DNA of 64,000 nucleotides, from positions 1-64,000 of the forward strand of contig NZ_BAWH01000020.1 of the NCBI RefSeq assembly GCF_000586435.1, given 5' to 3'. Position 1 is the stretch's first letter; each line of letters starts with the position of its first letter. Both the position numbers and the translations under genes were made by a program. Source of the DNA: Psychrobacter sp. JCM 18901 (GTDB lineage: Bacteria; Pseudomonadota; Gammaproteobacteria; Pseudomonadales; Moraxellaceae). The notes under the pieces were generated by a model, which saw only the letters and a list, made by a program, of their open reading frames with translations, was not told where the DNA came from and made no database searches. Positions 43,765 to 54,914 of this stretch are shown in pieces.

Positions 43765-45581
43765 TTAATCTAGGAACGAGAAGTGATCGATTTCCATTGA
43801 TGTCATGCTTTCGCTTGGTGCAACCATCGCTTCTGCGTGACCAGAAGTACGTGGTAGCAACTTATCAAAGTAGAATTCAGCAGTCTGAATTTTTGCTTTG
43901 TAGAACTCTGGTGCTTCTGTGCCGCCATTTTCTAGCTTTTCATAAGCTACTGCTGCCATACGAGCCCAGTGATAACCCATCATTACGTAGCCTGAGTACA
44001 TTAGGAAGTCCTCTGACGCTGCTGAGATGATTTCACGGTCTTTACGTGCCATCAACATCAAGCGTACCGTCAAGGTATTCCACTCAGCACATAGCTTGGT
44101 CAGTGCCCAAACGAATTTACGCATTTCTTTATCGAGTGCGTACTCGCCACACCATTTCATGATGCTAGAGGTATAGTCACGGATAATCTTACCTTTAGAC
44201 TGTAAGATAACCTTACGACCTAGTAGATCAAGTGCTTGTACGCCAGTAGTCCCTTCGTACATCGTCGCAATACGAGCATCACGAGCGATCATCTCCATGC
44301 CCCATTCTTTGATGTAGCCGTGACCACCATAGACTTGCTGACCATGCTTAGCAGCTTCGATACCTAGCTCAGTTAAGAAGCCTTTTAGAATTGGCGTATA
44401 GAAGCCAATTTGTCGTCCCACTTTTCGAACTCTTCATCATCGCCATTGACAATACCTTGTGCCATTTTATCTGCATAACGTGCTGAATGATAAATCATTG
44501 AGCGACCGCCTTCAGCAAAGGCTTTTTGCGTCAGTAGCATACGGCGTACGTCGGCATGATGGATAATAGCATCAGCTACTTTTTCAGGATCTTTAGTACC
44601 AGATAGCGTACGCATAGAACGGCGTTCTTTGGCATATGGTAAGGCGTTTTGGAAAGACAATTCAGTATGCGCCAGACCTTGGATACCAGTACCGATACGA
44701 GCCGTGTTCATGAATGTGAACATGCTTTTAGGCCTTTATGCGGTTCGCCGATTAGATAGCCTGTTGCACCATCAAAGTTCAATACACATGTCGAAGATGC
44801 GCTGATGCCCATTTTGTGCTCAATTGAACCACAAACGACGGCATTGCGCTCGCCAGCTTCACCTTCAGCATTCGGGGTGAATTTTGGTACGATAAATAGT
44901 GAGATACCGCGCGTGCCTTCTGGTGCATTTGGTAGGCGTGCTAGGACGATATGGACGATGTTATCTGTTAAGTCATGCTCACCGCTTGAGATAAAGATTT
45001 TGGTACCGCTGATTTTATAGGTACCGTCATCTTGTGGAATGGCTTTTGATTTAACTTGACCCAAATCCGTACCACACTGTGGCTCAGTCAGACACATGGT
45101 ACCTGCATGAGCCTTCGACCAACTTAGGTAAATACAGGGCTTTTTGCTCGTCAGTACCGTACTGAAGCAATGTGTTGATACAACCTGTTGATAGACCAGG
45201 ATACATCGACCATGACCAGTTAGCAGTACCGATCATCTCAGATTTAATAAGGTTGATTGACGTTGGCAGATTCATACCACCGAATTCTTCAGGATATGAG
45301 ATACCTTGCCAGCCGCCTTCTACGAACTGGTCATAAGCCTCTTTGAAGCCCTTTGGCGTGGTCACGACGCCATCTTCAAAATGACAGCCTTCTTCACCAC
45401 CTGATTGATAGAGCGGGGCAATGACGTTTTCAGCAAAATCAGCCATACCTTGTAGAATCATGTCTACAGTTTCAGGATCAGCGTTTTCGCCGTTGTCTAA
45501 GCTTTTATAATGCGTCTGATAGTCAAATACATCATTAATCAAAAATTTGATATCACGTAAGGGGGCTTTGTAAGTTAACAT
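43765..45581 (-). CDS. acyl-CoA dehydrogenase with C-terminal extension, DmdC/FadE-like (frame broken three times)
   Basis: Repaired length is about 606 aa. The N-terminus YKAPLRDIKFLINDVFDY and size match the large acyl-CoA dehydrogenases with an extra C-terminal domain, a group that includes 3-methylmercaptopropionyl-CoA dehydrogenase (DmdC). FAD/substrate motifs: GTMCLTEPQCGTDLG, KIFISSGEHDL, GIQGLAHTELSFQNALPYAK and QVYGGHGYIKEWGMEMIARD. Breaks: two bases missing near 45105 (a Trp codon expected in GSWAGTM), one near 44726-44729, one near 44407. The substrate range cannot be read. Monocistronic on the minus strand. Confidence 0.87.
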
Positions 45582-47117: not shown

Positions 47118-47982
47118 TTAACTGTTTTTATTTAGCGCTGTTGTCGCTTGTGCGACATCGATAGTATGCCCAGTCCAACGCTCAAAACTTAAAGCAGCTT
47201 GACCGATAAGCATACCGTAGCCTTCAGAGGTCTGTGCGCCGCGAGCGGCAAAATGTTGTAAAAACGGTAGCGGACGACCATACATCATGTCGTAAGCGTA
47301 CTGACAGTTTAGAGTATCATCTAGCGGCAACGTATCACCTGATAAACCAATAGAGGTGGCATTAATGATGATATCAAAAGAGCCACTGAGTTCATTGGTC
47401 GCGCAAACCTCGATATTTTGGTCATCAATCACTGAGCTGGCCGCACTGAGCTCATTTACCAAATCAGCTGCCTTAGACACGGTGCGATTGGCAATCGTGA
47501 GAGAGCCAATACCCGCTTCAAATAATGGCAATATTACGCCACGAGCTGCACCGCCTGCACCTATTAGCGCCACACGAGCATCGGTCAGCGGCCAGTCCAT
47601 ACTCATAATGTGATTGATAAGTCCTTGCCCATCCGTATTATCACCGTAGAGTGCCTCTGTGATTGGTGCGCCGCTTTCTAATAGTGCTTTGTTCAACAGT
47701 AACGTATTGACCGCGCCTGCCGTCTTGGCATGTTCTGATAAACCACCACGCGCCGCGCAGCAGTCATAAGCAACTTGTTTAAAAGGAACCGTCACGTTAG
47801 CGCCCGCACCGCCACCGCAAAAAAAACGCCTCAACGACAGCCGTAAAACTGGCGGCATCATCAGGACAGTACTGACGCTGATAGCTAATATCAATCCCTG
47901 CTTGGATAGCAAACTGCTCATGAATCTCAGGAGATTTACTATGGGCGATTGGATTGCCAATAACGATAAAATGTTGGGTCAT
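47118..47982 (-). CDS. aroE: shikimate dehydrogenase (frame broken once)
   Basis: NADP-dependent reduction of 3-dehydroshikimate in aromatic amino acid synthesis. Repaired length is about 287 aa. Substrate site: [15 protein letters not shown], with NVTVPFK (catalytic Lys) and GDNTDGQGL. The NADP site is [16 protein letters not shown] with ANRT. C-terminal [18 protein letters not shown]. Plus-strand A8 at 47819-47826 (expected A7) breaks the frame before GANVTVPFK. It is convergent with the FUSC gene, 32 nt apart. Confidence 0.95.
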
Positions 47983-49138: not shown

Positions 49139-50131
49139 ATGACCGATATGACGTCAGTGCCAAACGGCTGGGTGTGTCTGTATCCACAAGTCAGCAGTGT
49201 GACCGAAGATGATAGGGCAACCAGCCAAACGGTAACCATGTCTCTAGATAATCGTGGGCTGGCATACGCTGATGGCTTCTTTACTACCATGGGCGTCATT
49301 GATGGGTGGATACTATGGTCAGATTATCATTATCAGCGGCTTGTCTCTCATGCTGAAGCCTTGCAGCTAAACATAAATAGCGAAGAGCTATTAGCAGTAC
49401 TGCAGCTGTATGCCCAGCAGTTAGAGCAGGGCATGCTAAAGCTAATAGTTACTCGCGCTGCGCAGAATGTACGCGGTTATGGCTATGCACCTAGTGCAGA
49501 TGGTAGCGACTGTGAAATATGGTTAAAGGCTACCGCAATGCAAGTTTCTACGGCGCTGCAATTGTCTTTGCCTAATGGGAGCTTGATACCTATCCAACCT
49601 AATGCCTCGGCAATATGTTTGGCTTCTCAGATTGCTTGCTTACCGCCACCGCTGGCAGGTCTCAAGAGCCTTAATCGTTTAGACAATGTCCTCGCTAGTG
49701 GTGAGCTACAGCGGATAAAAGCTGAGCCATTGGCATCAAAGCTTGCTTCAACACTTGGTGAAGGTCTGCTACGCGATATGAGTGGGCAGTGGGTTGAGGG
49801 TACGATGAGTAATGTATTCTATCAATTGGCAGAAGAGCCACTATCAGAATCCAAAACTACCTCTAGTATTCATAAAGATGATGAAAACTACCTAACCACT
49901 GGTCAGTGGTACGCGCCTTCCATGGATCAATCGGGCGTCGCTGGCGTCATGCGTCAGGTAATTATAGATGCACTATCCACGACGCAGTATCCAGTCATAA
50001 TCAGGTCGCTACGAGATGAGGATTTACCTAAAGTAACGCAGTTATTCTTTTGCAATGCACTGCGCGGTATCATGCCAATGAGCAGTCTGACGTTATTGTC
50101 AGGTGATGTTGTGGATTTTCGATCGTTTTAG
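49139..50131 (+). CDS. pabC: aminodeoxychorismate lyase
   Basis: PLP enzyme releasing p-aminobenzoate from aminodeoxychorismate for folate synthesis. 330 aa against 269 in E. coli; the extra length is an N-terminal leader and an insert near residues 235-265. Motifs: RGLAYADGFFTTM, a GYGYAP segment, the catalytic Lys in LAGLKSLNRLDNVLAS, GTMSNVF (phosphate-cup strand) and GVMRQ. In most relatives mltG and tmk follow at once; here an accessory island of about 2.6 kb intervenes. Intact. Confidence 0.88.
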   Translation: MTDMTSVPNGWVCLYPQVSSVTEDDRATSQTVTMSLDNRGLAYADGFFTTMGVIDGWILWSDYHYQRLVSHAEALQLNINSEELLAVLQLYAQQLEQGMLKLIVTRAAQNVRGYGYAPSADGSDCEIWLKATAMQVSTALQLSLPNGSLIPIQPNASAICLASQIACLPPPLAGLKSLNRLDNVLASGELQRIKAEPLASKLASTLGEGLLRDMSGQWVEGTMSNVFYQLAEEPLSESKTTSSIHKDDENYLTTGQWYAPSMDQSGVAGVMRQVIIDALSTTQYPVIIRSLRDEDLPKVTQLFFCNALRGIMPMSSLTLLSGDVVDFRSF

Positions 50132-50134
50132 CTA

Positions 50135-50344
50135 TTATTGAAAAATATTGAATTTGGTATCAATAAAATCATCTGGATATAAAACCACTTTCTCACTTCT
50201 ATACATTTCTTGCGCTTTCAAAAGGGCACTTTGCTCATCTTCTGCGACAACATCCACGATAGTCTTAATGTTTCGACAATTTCAATTTGAAAGGTTTGTG
50301 CTGACTTCTCATTTTTTTCTATTATATTCACGCTCGGTTCTCAT
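50135..50344 (-). CDS. DpnD/PcfM-like small protein (frame broken twice)
   Basis: Repaired length is about 69 aa. From ATG 50344 it reads MRTEREYNRKNEKS, then QIEIVETLRTIVDVVAEDEQ, ALLKAQEMYRSEKVVLYPDD and FIDTKFNIFQ. A short strand followed by a helix with AxxKAQEMY and a final DDFxDTxF matches my memory of DpnD/PcfM domains, small proteins found beside DpnI-type restriction genes and on conjugative elements. Two indels are needed: T7 at 50312-50318 (expected T6) and one base missing near 50263. Function is unknown in the family. It ends 3 nt from the convergent pabC stop. Confidence 0.6.
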
Positions 50345-50397
50345 ATATCACTTCAGTCATTTATAGCAAGTAGATTAGCAAAAGCCCTCAAAAGAAG

Positions 50398-50447
50398 TGA
50401 TCGTCTTTTGTTACGTGGTCTTGTGTCTTAAAGCAAATCGATCAATG
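50398..50447 (+). promoter_or_regulatory. conserved 50-bp upstream element, copy 1
   Basis: TGATCGTCTTTTGTTA, a 22-bp variable middle, then AATCGATCAATG. The first 16 and last 12 bases are identical to copy 2 at 51281, the total length is the same, and only 10 of 22 middle positions match. The ends form an inverted repeat TGATCG/CGATCA with GATC sites 41 bp apart. It lies 27 bp before the ATG at 50475, with GGAG in between. Likely an operator or promoter (inference). Confidence 0.75.
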
Positions 50448-50474
50448 CTGCTTATCTAATAAGGAGATAAGCCA

Positions 50475-51041
50475 ATGTACGAAGTTTATGAAGATGAAAG
50501 TATCCCGCTACAAATCCGTCGTTTGATGGTTTTTGATGAAATCTGTAAATTAGCGAAGAAAGAACCTGATGAAATTATTCATTTATCAAAATTTACTCAG
50601 TTATCACTCGGAGTTATGTATCTAAAGGATTTCAAGAAATTTATAGCCTTTGGTGGTGTGTTTGAGTATGCACAAACACCCGAAGAAGTTATTGAGCAAC
50701 GTATTCGCATTTTTCCTAACGACGAGCCAGTAAAGTGTGCGCTGACTGTTAATCTAAAGCAGTTTACTCGCCCAGCTAGTACACCTATACAATTAGTGTG
50801 GTATTGGAATAAATATGTAAAGAATAGAATGCATGCTTATGTTGACTATCGTGAAGAAGTTTTTTTTCGGATAAATGATGAAATTGATTCGGATTACCCA
50901 CCGCATAAGTTTCATGACCGTCTAGTTGCGACAGCTCGTCTGCCACTATGGGATGATAGAGATGAGTTAATTGCAGATGTATACCGTGACAATCAAGGCG
51001 AACCTAGACCTGAACGTTATAATGAAAGGCGTCTGTTATAA
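50475..51041 (+). CDS. hypothetical protein A of the DpnI island
   Basis: 188 aa, intact, family not recognised. It is mixed alpha/beta by appearance and strongly charged, with no signal peptide or membrane segment, so cytosolic. Blocks shared with the paralogue at 51370: IPLQIRRLM, an AKxxPDExIHL segment, FGxVFxYAxTxxEVIEQ and YPPHKFxxRLVA followed by LPLWDD. The C-terminal ~20 residues (Arg/Glu/Asn-rich) are absent from the paralogue. GGAG precedes the ATG. Its location with dpnC and a dpnD-like gene suggests a role tied to restriction or its control, but no catalytic motif supports a specific function. Confidence 0.7.
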   Translation: MYEVYEDESIPLQIRRLMVFDEICKLAKKEPDEIIHLSKFTQLSLGVMYLKDFKKFIAFGGVFEYAQTPEEVIEQRIRIFPNDEPVKCALTVNLKQFTRPASTPIQLVWYWNKYVKNRMHAYVDYREEVFFRINDEIDSDYPPHKFHDRLVATARLPLWDDRDELIADVYRDNQGEPRPERYNERRLL

Positions 51042-51095
51042 TTCGAAATAATTACTATGTTATACGAAACTCATAATTAAGTTACTACTTATAGT

Positions 51096-51125
51096 TATAG
51101 CTGCTAATAAATTTTAGCGGCTATA
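51096..51125. terminator. 12-bp hairpin after hypothetical gene A
   Basis: TATAGCTGCTAA pairs with TTAGCGGCTATA around a 6-nt loop, with one wobble pair. No long T-run follows, so it may be a terminator acting weakly or an mRNA-stabilising hairpin. Confidence 0.5.
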
Positions 51126-51280
51126 ATATTATGATCTTGATACTGTGTTTATATGACGTATTAGCCTTCTTACATAAATCACCACTAGCCTTTGTGGCTC
51201 CGTCAATTGAAGTTAATGCACTGGTACTTTCGCAAGAAGTCTATTGAGTGATGCATATCTCCAATAACGTTCTTCATAAT

Positions 51281-51330
51281 TGATCGTCTTTTGTTAATGA
51301 GTATTGCGTACTGATGTTAATCGATCAATG
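51281..51330 (+). promoter_or_regulatory. conserved 50-bp upstream element, copy 2
   Basis: Same arms and length as copy 1 at 50398. Here the inverted repeat is 8 bp, ATTGATCG (51279-51286) against CGATCAAT (51322-51329), and GATC sites are again 41 bp apart. It lies 39 bp before the ATG at 51370. Arm conservation exceeds that of the coding sequences that follow, pointing to selection on the element. Confidence 0.75.
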
Positions 51331-51369
51331 ATTGCATTCTATCCAATACTATCTAACAGGGGATAATAA

Positions 51370-51865
51370 ATGCGTACTACCTATGAAGATCAACGAATTC
51401 CACTACAAATCAGACGCTTGATGATATTCAATAAAGTTTGCGGTGCAGCGAAAAGAAATCCTGATGAAATGATTCACTTACCTTGTTATTCACAGATAGC
51501 ATTTAGTATTGTTTATTCTAAGAAAGATAGAAAATACACAGCATTTGGGAGTGTGTTTAAGTATGCGCATACCCGTCAAGAAGTCATTGAACAAGGTTTA
51601 GATAAGCAGTTTCATGAAGATACTGTGATGTGTGCAATCACAACCGAAAGACAAGCTTTTACTAAAGCTTCTCGCACTCCGTTAGGGCTGCTAATGAGCT
51701 GGAATAAACAGGTAAAAAAATCGAGCTTATACCTGTCTCGATGGCAATGTGAAACACTTTTTCAAAGTAAATGATGAGCTAGAGCTAGATTACCCTCCTC
51801 ATAAGTTTTACGGTCGTTTGGTTGCTGCCAAAGGTTTACCATTATGGGATGATAAGTGTTCTTAG
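51370..51865 (+). CDS. hypothetical protein B of the DpnI island, paralogue of A (frame broken once)
   Basis: Repaired length is about 164 aa. It shares all main blocks with protein A (RIPLQIRRLMIFNKVC, AFGSVFKYAHTRQEVIEQ, DYPPHKFYGRLVAAKGLPLW) and is clearly a diverged duplicate. A7 at 51714-51720 (expected A6) breaks the frame; the repaired C-terminus VNDELELDYPPHKF aligns with INDEIDSDYPPHKF of protein A, which independently proves the break. The stop at 51863-51865 overlaps the stop of the convergent dpnC gene by 3-4 nt. No function is recognised. Confidence 0.72.
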
Positions 51866-52627
51866 TATAATTTTTGATAGTGACCACGGCTTACAAATTC
51901 AATGATGCCTTTATCTCGTAGTACTTGTAACTGTTGGCGAATTTTATCTTTTACGTGGTTGTTTTCAGGATGTTTGAGCTGCAGTTCACTAGCAAAAGCA
52001 TAAACTTGATTGAGAGAAAAACTGACATCGAGACGGTCGATACATTGCCAGACATCGAGTGTCCAACCGCGTGAAGCCATAGATTGCTTGCGTAAAAACA
52101 AAGTCTTTTGGAACTGTTGGGTAACGCTTTCACGCGGTATAGCTTGTTGGTCTTTGACCAAAAATACTTTGCCTGATTCGGGTACGTGGCGTAAGTCAAT
52201 ATTGCAACCAACCCAACCTGCTCGTTTTGCCGTCACTGATAAGGGTTTACGCTTAACAATAATATCGGGTGTAAAGAAATGCTTGGGAATAATCAGAAAA
52301 TTGTTGACGGTGTATTCTTTTGAGTAGGTTAAAAAGAAAAAGCTGGGATTGTTCTTACTATTGATACGCTCAATCATCGTCTTATAAGCGCCATCATTGA
52401 CAACATTGCTTAACTTGGCTTTTTTTACTTTTTAGCTCATATTGCTCATTACAATTTTCGCAATAAAAATCAGCGACAGGTTTGTTATTAGCAAACTCAG
52501 CTAGCGATTGGGCGCTACAATTGGTGCAGTAACTATTTTCTTTTACCCATGCTTCGCTGAGTACACGAACTTTTTGAGGTTCAGAGTGATAGTTTTTAGC
52601 AAGACTTTGGTTAAAATGTAGGTTCAT
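51862..52627 (-). CDS. dpnC: DpnI-type methyl-directed restriction endonuclease (frame broken once)
   Basis: Repaired length is about 254 aa, the same as pneumococcal DpnI. Starts MNLHFNQSLAKNYHS. The PD-(D/E)xK core is PVADFYC...ELKSKK, with a four-cysteine zinc site CTNC...CENC. The middle has NPSFFFLTYSKEY, RKPLSVTAKRAGWVGCNIDL and LFLRKQSMASRGWTLDV. The C-terminal winged helix ends KDKIRQQLQVLRDKGIIEF. DpnI cuts GATC only when its adenine is methylated. T7 at 52420-52426 on the plus strand (expected T6) breaks the frame; repaired, it reads LKSKKAKLSNVVNDGAYKTM. A DpnI-bearing cell should lack Dam methylation. Confidence 0.93.
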
Positions 52628-52798: not shown

Positions 52799-54100
52799 AT
52801 GAGCAAGCCTACACCTAATATACCACCTGAACGTCCCAATGAGTCGCCGTCAAACAAACAAGATGGCACAGTCGAGGAGCGTGTCGATACCACGCTACCG
52901 GACGCGCAACCAGTGGTAGATGAGGTGGAAGACACATCAGCAACGTCAACAACGCCAGCAACCAACGTCTCGCTCATCAGCGGCAACAGTAAACCGCGCC
53001 AATATAAAGTCAATAACCCATCGTTTTTTATGCAACGCGGCTATCAAGTGCTGCTAGTATTGGGGCTTATTGCCGCATTTTTCTTGGTCATGGTTTATCA
53101 GACGTTGTTTGGGCGTATCGAGCAGCCGCAGCAAATGGTCACGATTGAGCCAGGTCAGACGTATTATGGTCTACTACCGCAGTGGCAGCAGCAGATTCCG
53201 TTGTTTTCGGCAGGCGTGGCCAAGCTATATATCAAATCACAAGTCGATGCGCCGTTGCATGCTGGTACGTATAAACTACCCGAAAACCCGACTATCGCTG
53301 AGGCGCTACAGATACTAGGTCAAGGCGCAAAAGCAGCCATGGTCAAGGTACAGATCATCGAAGGTAAGACATCTAAAGACCTTTATCAAGCGCTGCGTGA
53401 TAATGACAAAATCGAAAAAGAAGTACTGACCGCAGATAGTGACAATGCCAGTATCGCCCAAGCATTGGATTTGACAGGTATATTGCCAGACAGTGTGGCT
53501 AATAGCAGTGACCCGATTGTTAACTATAATCTTGAAGGTTGGTTCGCGCCTGATACCTACTATTACGGTGAAGGAACCAGCGATAAAAAAGTACTGACTG
53601 ACTTGTATAAGCGTCAGCAGCAGGTACTGACTGATGCGTGGGAAAATCGTGCGCCGAATCTGCCTTATAAGAGTCCATATGAAGCGCTAGTCATGGCGTC
53701 TATTATCGAAAAAGAGACCAGCGTTGCTGATGAACGTCCTTTAGTTTCTGCCGTGTTTAGAAACCGTTTGAATAAAAACATGCGTATGCAGACGGACCCG
53801 ACCATCATCTATGGTATGGGTAGTCGTTATGATGGCAATATCCGCCGCAAAGACATCAATGAAAAAAAACGTCTTATAACACCTACCAAATTGATGGTTT
53901 ACCGCCAACGCCAATTGCGCTACCATCAGCGGCCTCTATCGAAGCGACCTTACATCCTGCCGATAGTGAAGCATTGTATTTTGTGGCAACGGGCAATGGC
54001 GGGCACAAATTTACCAATAGCTTGGCTGAGCACAACCAAGCGGTAAAAGACTATCTCAGTGTCATGCGTGAGAAAAAAATCTCAAACGCCGCCGCAGTAA
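52799..54100 (+). CDS. mltG: endolytic murein transglycosylase MltG (frame broken twice)
   Basis: Membrane-anchored enzyme that cuts nascent glycan strands and sets their length. Repaired length is about 432 aa with an extended Pro/Thr-rich cytoplasmic leader of about 75 residues. One membrane helix follows (VLLVLGLIAAFFLVMVYQTL). The catalytic YceG domain has LEGWFAPDTYYYG, MASIIEKETSVADERPLVSAVF and MQTDPTIIYGMG, plus YNTYQIDGLPPTPIALPS after repair. A8 at 53862-53869 (expected A6) and A7 at 54073-54079 (expected A6) break the frame; the real stop is 54098-54100. Confidence 0.92.
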
Positions 54101-54187
54101 ATAACCTCTTAATCTTCTCACAAAACTTATCGTTTATTGAGTGCTACAAAGTAGAGGTAGCGCTCATCAATGACATAAGGTCATATC

Positions 54188-54914
54188 ATGTCAGTATCTA
54201 TGCACACCAGCGCAACACCGTCACATAGCAGCACGCCAGCATCGAATCTACCTGAATCAAGTGCTTCAAATACAGCACCTATCTTAGGACGCTTTATTAG
54301 TTTTGAAGGAACTGAAGGCGTGGGCAAAACCACCGCGATTGAACAGTTGTGTTTGCGCTTAGAAGCTAATGGCATCTCGTATCTGCGTACTCGTGAGCCG
54401 GGTGGTAGTCCATTTGCCGAGCAATTGCGTGACATATTATTAGATCCGGCGACTGATATCGAAGACGATACCGAGCTGCTGCTATTGTTTGCGGCGCGCT
54501 GTGATCATATGCAGCAAGTCATTCTACCAGCGCTCCAAAATGGTACTTGGGTGATATGTGATAGATTTACCGATTCTACTATTGCGTATCAGGGCTTTGG
54601 GCGTGCGTATGGCGACGAGCTGGTACGCGGCAAAATCGATATGCTTATCAAACAATTTGTGACGCAGCTTCCTGAGCTGACATTGTGGTTGGATTTGCCA
54701 GTAGCAGAGGGCATGAAGCGTGCCAACAAGCGCAGTGCAGCAGATCGTTTTGAGCAGCAAGCTACCGAGTTTTTTTACCTGGGTGCATACTGGTTTTAGT
54801 CAACTTGCGAGCGAGTATCCTGAGCGCATACAGCGTATTGATGCATCGGGCAGTACGGATGATGTGAGTGCGCGTATATGGCAGACTGTTATGGACAGAT
54901 TCGATATTAAATAA
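54188..54914 (+). CDS. tmk: thymidylate kinase (frame broken once)
   Basis: Phosphorylates dTMP to dTDP. Repaired length is about 241 aa. A Ser/Thr/Ala-rich leader of about 34 residues precedes the usual start. P-loop FEGTEGVGKTT at 40-49, TREPGGSPFAEQLRD, CDRFTDSTIAYQG and the LWLDLP strand, followed by the LID. T7 at 54770-54776 (expected T6) breaks the frame near the C-terminus; repaired, it reads TEFFTWVHTGFSQLASEYPERI. mltG-tmk order as in many gammaproteobacteria; holB is not next here. Confidence 0.93.

Follow-up and report, generated by a model that had tools for sequence, protein, structure and literature searches.

A conserved element with two GATC sites accompanies the orphan genes of the DpnI cassette of Psychrobacter and may be a divergent control region

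It is known that in the pneumococcus one chromosomal site holds either the DpnI cassette (dpnC and dpnD) or the DpnII cassette (dpnM, dpnA, and dpnB) (PMC3573125). At the leuS/dam locus of Neisseria, the DpnI-like gene drg replaces dam between conserved flanks; unlike the situation described below for Psychrobacter, the term dpnD is missing from the main text of the article concerned, and it does not appear to mention a gene like our orphan gene X or a two-GATC control element (PMC4269198). In Salmonella, symmetric GATC sites overlap the regulator (OxyR) sites upstream of opvAB, a probably acquired locus that was examined by GATC mutation in a Dam-plus host (PMC3350482).

In Psychrobacter, the site investigated here resembles that of Streptococcus pneumoniae in holding either a methyl-directed GATC nuclease together with DpnD, or else a methylase of the Dam type accompanied by a nuclease and another methylase; as in Neisseria, a DpnI-like gene occupies the place of a dam-type gene between conserved flanks and, as in opvAB, several symmetric GATC sequences lie at inferred promoter/regulator sites. 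Unlike in the pneumococcus, however, pabC and mltG form the flanks; dpnD has a divergent orientation and lies on the far side of an orphan gene (X), whereas pneumococcal dpnD adjoins dpnC; the cassette harbors this orphan gene, or another one (Y), together with a conserved two-GATC element; and the one nuclease of the second cassette type that was examined is MutH-like and falls below the NCBIfam cut-off. In contrast to opvAB, the Psychrobacter host carries DpnI, and the element is known here from its sequence. To our knowledge, the survival of a swap between a nuclease cutting unmethylated GATC and one cutting methylated GATC has not been fully explained, and we know of no role established for DpnD. 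A literature search found no paper combining Psychrobacter, DpnI, and GATC, and none of the matches listed concerns this locus by its title or the start of its abstract. The alternation of cassettes is in itself of an already known kind; as far as the searches go, the alternation in Psychrobacter, the orphan genes X and Y, and a putative two-GATC control region in a GATC-poor cassette are new.

The element occurs twice in the window, i.e., the whole stretch of 64,000 nucleotides that was analyzed, where the cassette site comprises the following features:

49139..50131, + strand: class IV aminotransferase, pabC-like, which borders the cassette site on its left
50138..50325, - strand: homologue of dpnD (PF14207, DpnD-PcfM) that diverges from X1; its frame is broken here and intact in relatives
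50398..50447, + strand: element copy 1 (conserved block about 50394-50449), with left arm TGATCGTCTTTTGTTA, CTTGTG in the middle, and right arm AATCGATCAATG
50399..50402, strand-neutral: left GATC of copy 1 (copy 2 counterpart 51282-51285)
50421..50449, + strand: weak core promoter inferred for X1, sigma-70-like (TTGTGT, 17 bp, AATGCT; register from conservation)
50440..50443, strand-neutral: right GATC of copy 1 (copy 2 counterpart 51323-51326)
50475..51041, + strand: X1, a 188-aa orphan protein without a Pfam/NCBIfam match over the cut-off and without a PADLOC or PDB sequence match
51281..51330, + strand: element copy 2, ahead of X2; its conserved block reaches 51332
51304-51332, + strand: copy 2 counterpart of the inferred core promoter (TTGCGT, 17 bp, AATGAT)
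51370..51856, + strand: X2, of the 164-aa type and paralogous to X1; its frame breaks after 51774, and relatives have it intact
51862..52627, - strand: DpnI (dpnC) homologue with catalytic and winged-helix domains (PF06044, DpnI_C), convergent with X; frame broken here
52799..54046, + strand: mltG (YceG), right border of the cassette site

The two 50-base copies had been noticed in a preliminary description of this DNA, whose account of their structure agrees with the sequence in every point: the 16-base left and 12-base right arms are identical base for base, the middle matches at 10/22 positions, the arms contain the inverted repeat TGATCG/CGATCA (8 pairs in copy 2), and the GATC sites are spaced by 41 bp in both copies (50399/50440 and 51282/51323). 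The proteins encoded downstream are, as it also said, only moderately similar, X1 and X2 being homologues with 45% identity over 118 residues. The inverted-repeat core common to all forms of the element, as read from the alignment of relatives, is only TGATC. The pair is not a chance occurrence: within the 64-kb window, the left arm has no further match at up to 3 mismatches, and in its own genome there are 3 further matches at up to 2 mismatches versus 5 for a reversed control pattern. The right arm, with its 12 bases, cannot be expected to be rare by itself.

Many genes of the window appear to be split by frame breaks (43765-45581, 47118-47982, 50138-50325, 51370-51856, 51862-52627, and 52799-54914); besides dpnD, X2, DpnI, and mltG, they include genes that we take to be acyl-CoA dehydrogenase-like, AroE-like, and thymidylate kinase-like. 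X2, DpnI, and dpnD are intact in relatives, and near relatives have mltG as a single open frame of about 437 codons; the breaks might perhaps stem from an indel-prone assembly (84.7% complete).

A relaxed pattern of the 52-base core, searched in contigs of one genome per species, disclosed 55 copies, distributed over 49 stretches that all bear the title Psychrobacter. Of these copies, 53 are followed by X, the other two being of the kinds found in genomes G047 and G055 (see below), and DpnI was seen after 52, the 3 misses lying within 800 bases of the end of the available stretch. The viral contig collection gave no match to the core pattern. Among 299 genomes of the family, all the listed left-arm matches with 0-1 mismatch belong to this genus, and the other genera show, among those listed, only matches with 2 mismatches. 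X is present in 54 of 145 genomes, all within the genus, and a DpnI match over the family cut-off was obtained in 71 of the 145, fragments included. Among the protein relatives of X (92 in one search and, in another, the 120 listed of 128), all those bearing an organism name are Psychrobacter; X was not found in plasmid or phage records. When the spacing between the arms was left free (20-59), the best-matching right arm was located 38 bases beyond the start of the left arm in each of 30 X-bearing loci (L006-L035). Hence the arms are conserved in orthologous islands, with a fixed geometry at one locus across Psychrobacter, as the preliminary description had required of its reading. Its alternative of a dispersed repeat does not apply, the matches in the own genome being at control level, the genus having a single locus, and the viral contigs none; likewise, a mobile miniature element was rejected, the copies being confined to one gene context.

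The pabC-mltG site was then collected from 98 further genomes of the genus, and 99 loci were typed, including that of the window (of 100 genus genomes, G050 has no mltG match, and two contigs of G008 were counted once), an element being counted at up to 4 mismatches of its 21 fixed bases. It is present in 64/99 loci. DpnI, dpnD, X, and the element occur together in 51 loci; five (G015, G037, G048, G066, and G070) have dpnD, X, the element, and a dpnA remnant, G070 having DpnI only as a fragment on another contig; four (G053, G077, G082, and G088) have DpnI, X, and the element without dpnD by tblastn, although dpnD was recovered by profile in G077; two (G022 and G055) have DpnI, dpnD, and the element with the unrelated 164-aa ORF Y; and one (G047) has DpnI, dpnD, and the element with no X match. 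The counts of X include broken or partial copies, e.g., in G002, G012, G070, G084, and G151. DpnI without X/Y or a full element is found in 17 loci, a DpnII-like cassette in 11, and neither type, at first typing, in 8, among which G060 with only 560 bases. The element is therefore tied to the DpnI island, as had been claimed, dpnD, the element, X or Y, and DpnI forming a cassette at pabC-mltG. The DpnD profile (PF14207) matches in 70/100 genus genomes (41.7 bits versus a cut-off of 25 for the G047 copy) and is missing in 11 of the 80 loci with DpnI or X/Y, one of which (G024) has a tblastn match.

DpnI or its fragments were detected in 79/99 loci and dpnM in 11/99. Since no locus has DpnI together with dpnM, the Psychrobacter site repeats, on this sample, the cassette alternation known from the pneumococcus and from Neisseria drg/dam. 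In the DpnII-like cassette of G010, the sole one in which dpnM was run, it matches the Dam family TIGR00571 with 275.7 bits (cut-off 114.85); the nuclease is MutH-like (46 bits, below the curated NCBIfam cut-off), and the second methylase resembles CcrM, below its cut-off. In all 11 DpnII-like cassettes the best left-arm match has 6-7 mismatches of 19. A shortened dpnA-like methylase lies beside pabC, with a dpnD-X cassette adjoining, in G015, G037, G048, G066, and G070 (L090, L086, L079, L078, and L087, respectively); these remnants next to DpnI-type cassettes imply the past replacement of a DpnII-like cassette in the five genomes. Most genus genomes (80/100) have no D12-methylase match; G020, G023, G066, and G069, which also have DpnI, carry high-scoring D12 methylases on other contigs that, if specific for GATC, would be self-destructive beside it.

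A link of the element with DpnI itself had also been suggested, and only part of this suggestion holds: the element belongs to the DpnI island, but in G147, one of the eight loci of neither type, a longer fetch (L217) revealed pabC, dpnD, the element, and X, and then another gene. No DpnI match was found in the whole G147 genome, a single genome for which the controls of the search gave none either, although the same family matched in 72 of 145 relatives. This case bears on the possibility that DpnI is the regulator, its winged-helix domain bridging two methylated GATC sites. The enzyme belongs to type IIE and binds Gm6ATC through two separate domains (PMC4117772), a possible role of Drg as a transcription factor and in mediating looping was suggested by Kwiatek et al. 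(PMC4269198), and 61 element loci carry DpnI. Nevertheless, we regard such a role as improbable, given the intact element, dpnD, and X in G147 (one genome, silent search controls), the 17 DpnI loci without a full element, and the fact that GATC should be unmethylated in DpnI cells.

The presence of each arm was then compared with that of the neighboring genes in the 80 loci with DpnI or X/Y, using 14 fixed bases for the left arm and 9 for the right. At up to 1 mismatch, loci with X/Y and dpnD keep the left arm in 57/57 cases and the right arm in 56/57; dpnD loci without an X/Y match over 80 bits keep them in 8/12 and 2/12, respectively, the two right-arm keepers being G012 (X fragment) and G047 (no X match); loci with neither dpnD nor X/Y keep none (0/8 for both). 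Where dpnD has no X/Y match at all, the left arm is still found in 6/10 loci (G005, G047, G071, G073, where an X tail is visible by eye, G148, and G150) and is not kept in G014, G020, G023, and G085, in the last of which dpnD itself is cut short. The left arm thus follows dpnD, the right arm follows X/Y, and the two are separable. Fisher tests, which ignore phylogeny, also linked the left arm with X/Y and the right arm with dpnD, significantly but less strongly, because most loci contain everything. The single dimeric regulator occupying both arms that had been envisaged initially is consequently not supported, since the arms come apart in relatives and share a core of only TGATC.

DpnD is not strictly required, as the three X loci that lack it (G053, G082, and G088) keep a recognizable, partly decayed element, with 1, 3, and 3 mismatches in the left arm and 2, 0, and 1 in the right. 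Distance alone need not explain the left-arm decay in dpnD-less loci, a point that comes from one genome: G147 has an intact left arm and dpnD, although its mltG is at least as distant as in those loci.

The gene following the element can also be exchanged. In G022 (L139:3517-4011) and G055 (L140), the element is followed not by X but by the unrelated orphan ORF Y; in G055 the intact element is immediately preceded by another left arm, a partial one. Since Y can replace X, and G147 has no DpnI match, both X and DpnI seem dispensable for the retention of the element. The function of X was searched by sequence in Pfam, PADLOC, NCBIfam, and PDB, which gave nothing usable (the Pfam and NCBIfam matches being all below the cut-off), and by fold comparison with PDB and BFVD, equally without usable results (mean pLDDT of the model, 77); the highest VIA-align Z for X, 4.6 with YkuJ, falls in the tool's range for chance arrangements. 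No DNA-binding fold was found for X by this uninformative comparison, and none is established for DpnD. Y gave three sub-cut-off Pfam matches over 8 members and a model too poor for use (mean pLDDT 37); it may perhaps resemble ASCH-type phage proteins. It has to be considered whether X regulates itself through the element, as the company that the right arm keeps with X/Y in loci with dpnD (56/57) might suggest. This appears scarcely probable to us: the element preceding the unrelated Y has only 0-1 mismatch of 21, suggesting that X would not be needed as the binder, and the fold comparison, uninformative as it was, disclosed no DNA-binding fold in X.

The strength of the constraint was estimated on pairs drawn from 55 distinct intact X proteins whose genes have an element. 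A pattern search had located these elements, and no X/Y locus escaped it, the second contig of G008 and the longer G147 fetch included. In the 443 pairs with 40-50% X identity, the agreement reaches 95% in the arms, 45% in the middle, and 43% at the third positions of shared codons, most of them four-fold; for the 271 pairs at 70-80%, the values are 96-97%, 57%, and 46%. The arms drop to 73% and 71% in the 14 pairs at 30-40% identity and to 69% and 67% in the single pair under 30%. The X protein is therefore under purifying selection and the arms more strongly so; the early impression that the arms are more constrained than the genes is thus supported. In 46 distinct 80-base sequences, the columns TGATCGT, TTTTGT, TTG, and GATC are invariant or nearly so, and the columns between them and the leader vary.

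The conservation of GATC has to be read against its scarcity at this site. With expected counts computed from trinucleotides, the 61 element-bearing DpnI cassettes contain, outside the element, 54 GATC versus 415.2 expected (0.13, nearly eightfold down), their flanks 226 versus 997.7 (0.23, about fourfold down), the 17 DpnI loci without element 40 versus 103.5 (0.39), 10 of the 11 DpnII-like cassettes 73 versus 106.1 (0.69), and the window 151 versus 295.9 (0.51); GGCC and CCGG are likewise low. The depletion is shared by the flanks, so that the purge is not special to the cassette. The pabC-mltG flanks of the 61 loci (0.23) are more depleted than the whole window (0.51), and it looks as if they travel together with the cassette. 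Within the element, positions 2 and 43 are GATC in 55/55 distinct 140-base sequences (elements at up to 2 mismatches, related genomes being non-independent), a figure that is partly by construction, as the search pattern includes both sites; a third GATC, at position 50, occurs in 25/55 (straddling the mask, it is excluded from the 54 counted above). The mean number of GATC per 140 bases is 2.6 versus 0.59 in shuffles. The intact X loci at 3-4 mismatches (G053, G082, and G088) also have both sites, and among the aligned elements the right site is lost only in that of G151, where X is a remnant. Wherever X or Y is intact, both GATC of the element are kept. In the window, 4/6 GATC of the cassette fall inside the two elements.

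The right half of the element has the layout of a promoter. The conserved block ends at position 52, which would correspond to the last T of a -10 box; in aligned relatives, the invariant TTG (24-26) is followed by 17 bp and by AATGAT or a similar hexamer, the start of X lying 19-51 bases farther on. The conserved register is the best-scoring one in 24/43 distinct sequences, but its hexamers, scored with general hexamer frequencies, are not above background (mean 5.1 versus a mean of 5.5, sd 1.9, for the best register of shuffled sequences), and a simple promoter scan of the window detected none at the element. A strong sigma-70 promoter was therefore rejected, register and spacing fitting and score and scan not. 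Because the register is conserved and the score does not exceed that of shuffles, the right half is probably a weak, regulator-dependent promoter of X. As for dpnD, the element is unlikely to be its core promoter, its distance to the dpnD match varying from about 57 to 214 bases; we would guess that this promoter lies on the opposite side, at the extended -10-like TTTTGCTAA on the reverse strand.

The inverted repeat, together with the tandem X copies each provided with its own element in one group of genomes, could also recall a hairpin in a structured leader RNA, or a site of recombination or attachment. Such explanations are to be considered very improbable. The hairpin was rejected, its six-pair stem showing no compensatory change over 45 distinct sequences (the variation is G-T or broken) and the window region having no Rfam match; as for an attachment site, in most loci dpnD is located between pabC and the element, which is therefore off the cassette border.

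On the whole, we regard it as probable, with some reserve, that the element is the control region of a divergent dpnD-X (or Y) pair, made up of a weak X promoter and a left regulator site, within a DpnI cassette that would compete with a DpnII/Dam-type cassette for the pabC-mltG site. The right half would be the promoter (TTG, 17 bp, AATGAT), the end of its spacer and the first base of the -10 box forming the CGATCA arm; the left half, AAGTGATCGTCTTTTGTTA, about 58-43 bases upstream of the predicted X start, would be a regulator site common to dpnD and X. Among the proteins encoded in the cassette, the best candidate for a binder or cofactor is DpnD, which is small and divergently encoded.

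It is also possible, even if we consider it doubtful, that the element is an ordinary operator/promoter of X, bound by a chromosomal factor from outside the cassette, with the GATC sites being incidental, a reading that partly overlaps with the previous one. Its persistence with Y instead of X, or without DpnI, and in three X loci without dpnD would agree with such a factor. Other data, however, fit it less well: the left arm with 0-1 mismatch is restricted to this genus among the matches listed for 299 genomes, the own genome contains no other site above control, so that the factor would have a single target, which would be unusual, and GATC is retained in a GATC-poor region.

Returning to the divergent dpnD-X control region, a more speculative extension is that adenine methylation alters it, in such a way that the expression of X and dpnD would be set by whether the cell is Dam-minus (DpnI) or Dam-plus (DpnII-type). 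This methylation-dependent behavior is proposed because both arms keep GATC in a GATC-poor cassette. Methylation sensing by the element is plausible, fitting the GATC pattern and resembling opvAB-type promoters; the conservation of GATC could also be merely part of a protein binding motif, with methylation uninvolved. That the divergent promoter, with its two to three GATC, is a built-in methylation sensor for cassette exchange, switching dpnD and X/Y, is in our opinion rather unlikely.

On this sample, alternating cassettes of the pneumococcal style occur in Psychrobacter, and the locus represents a compact test system, consisting of the element, the small DpnD, an orphan gene, and natural relatives each devoid of one part. 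The putative sensor promoter holds most of the few GATC sites of a cassette that excludes Dam. If it were indeed a sensor, it would spare the cell's own chromosome when a DpnI cassette enters a Dam-plus cell or when a DpnI cell meets Dam.
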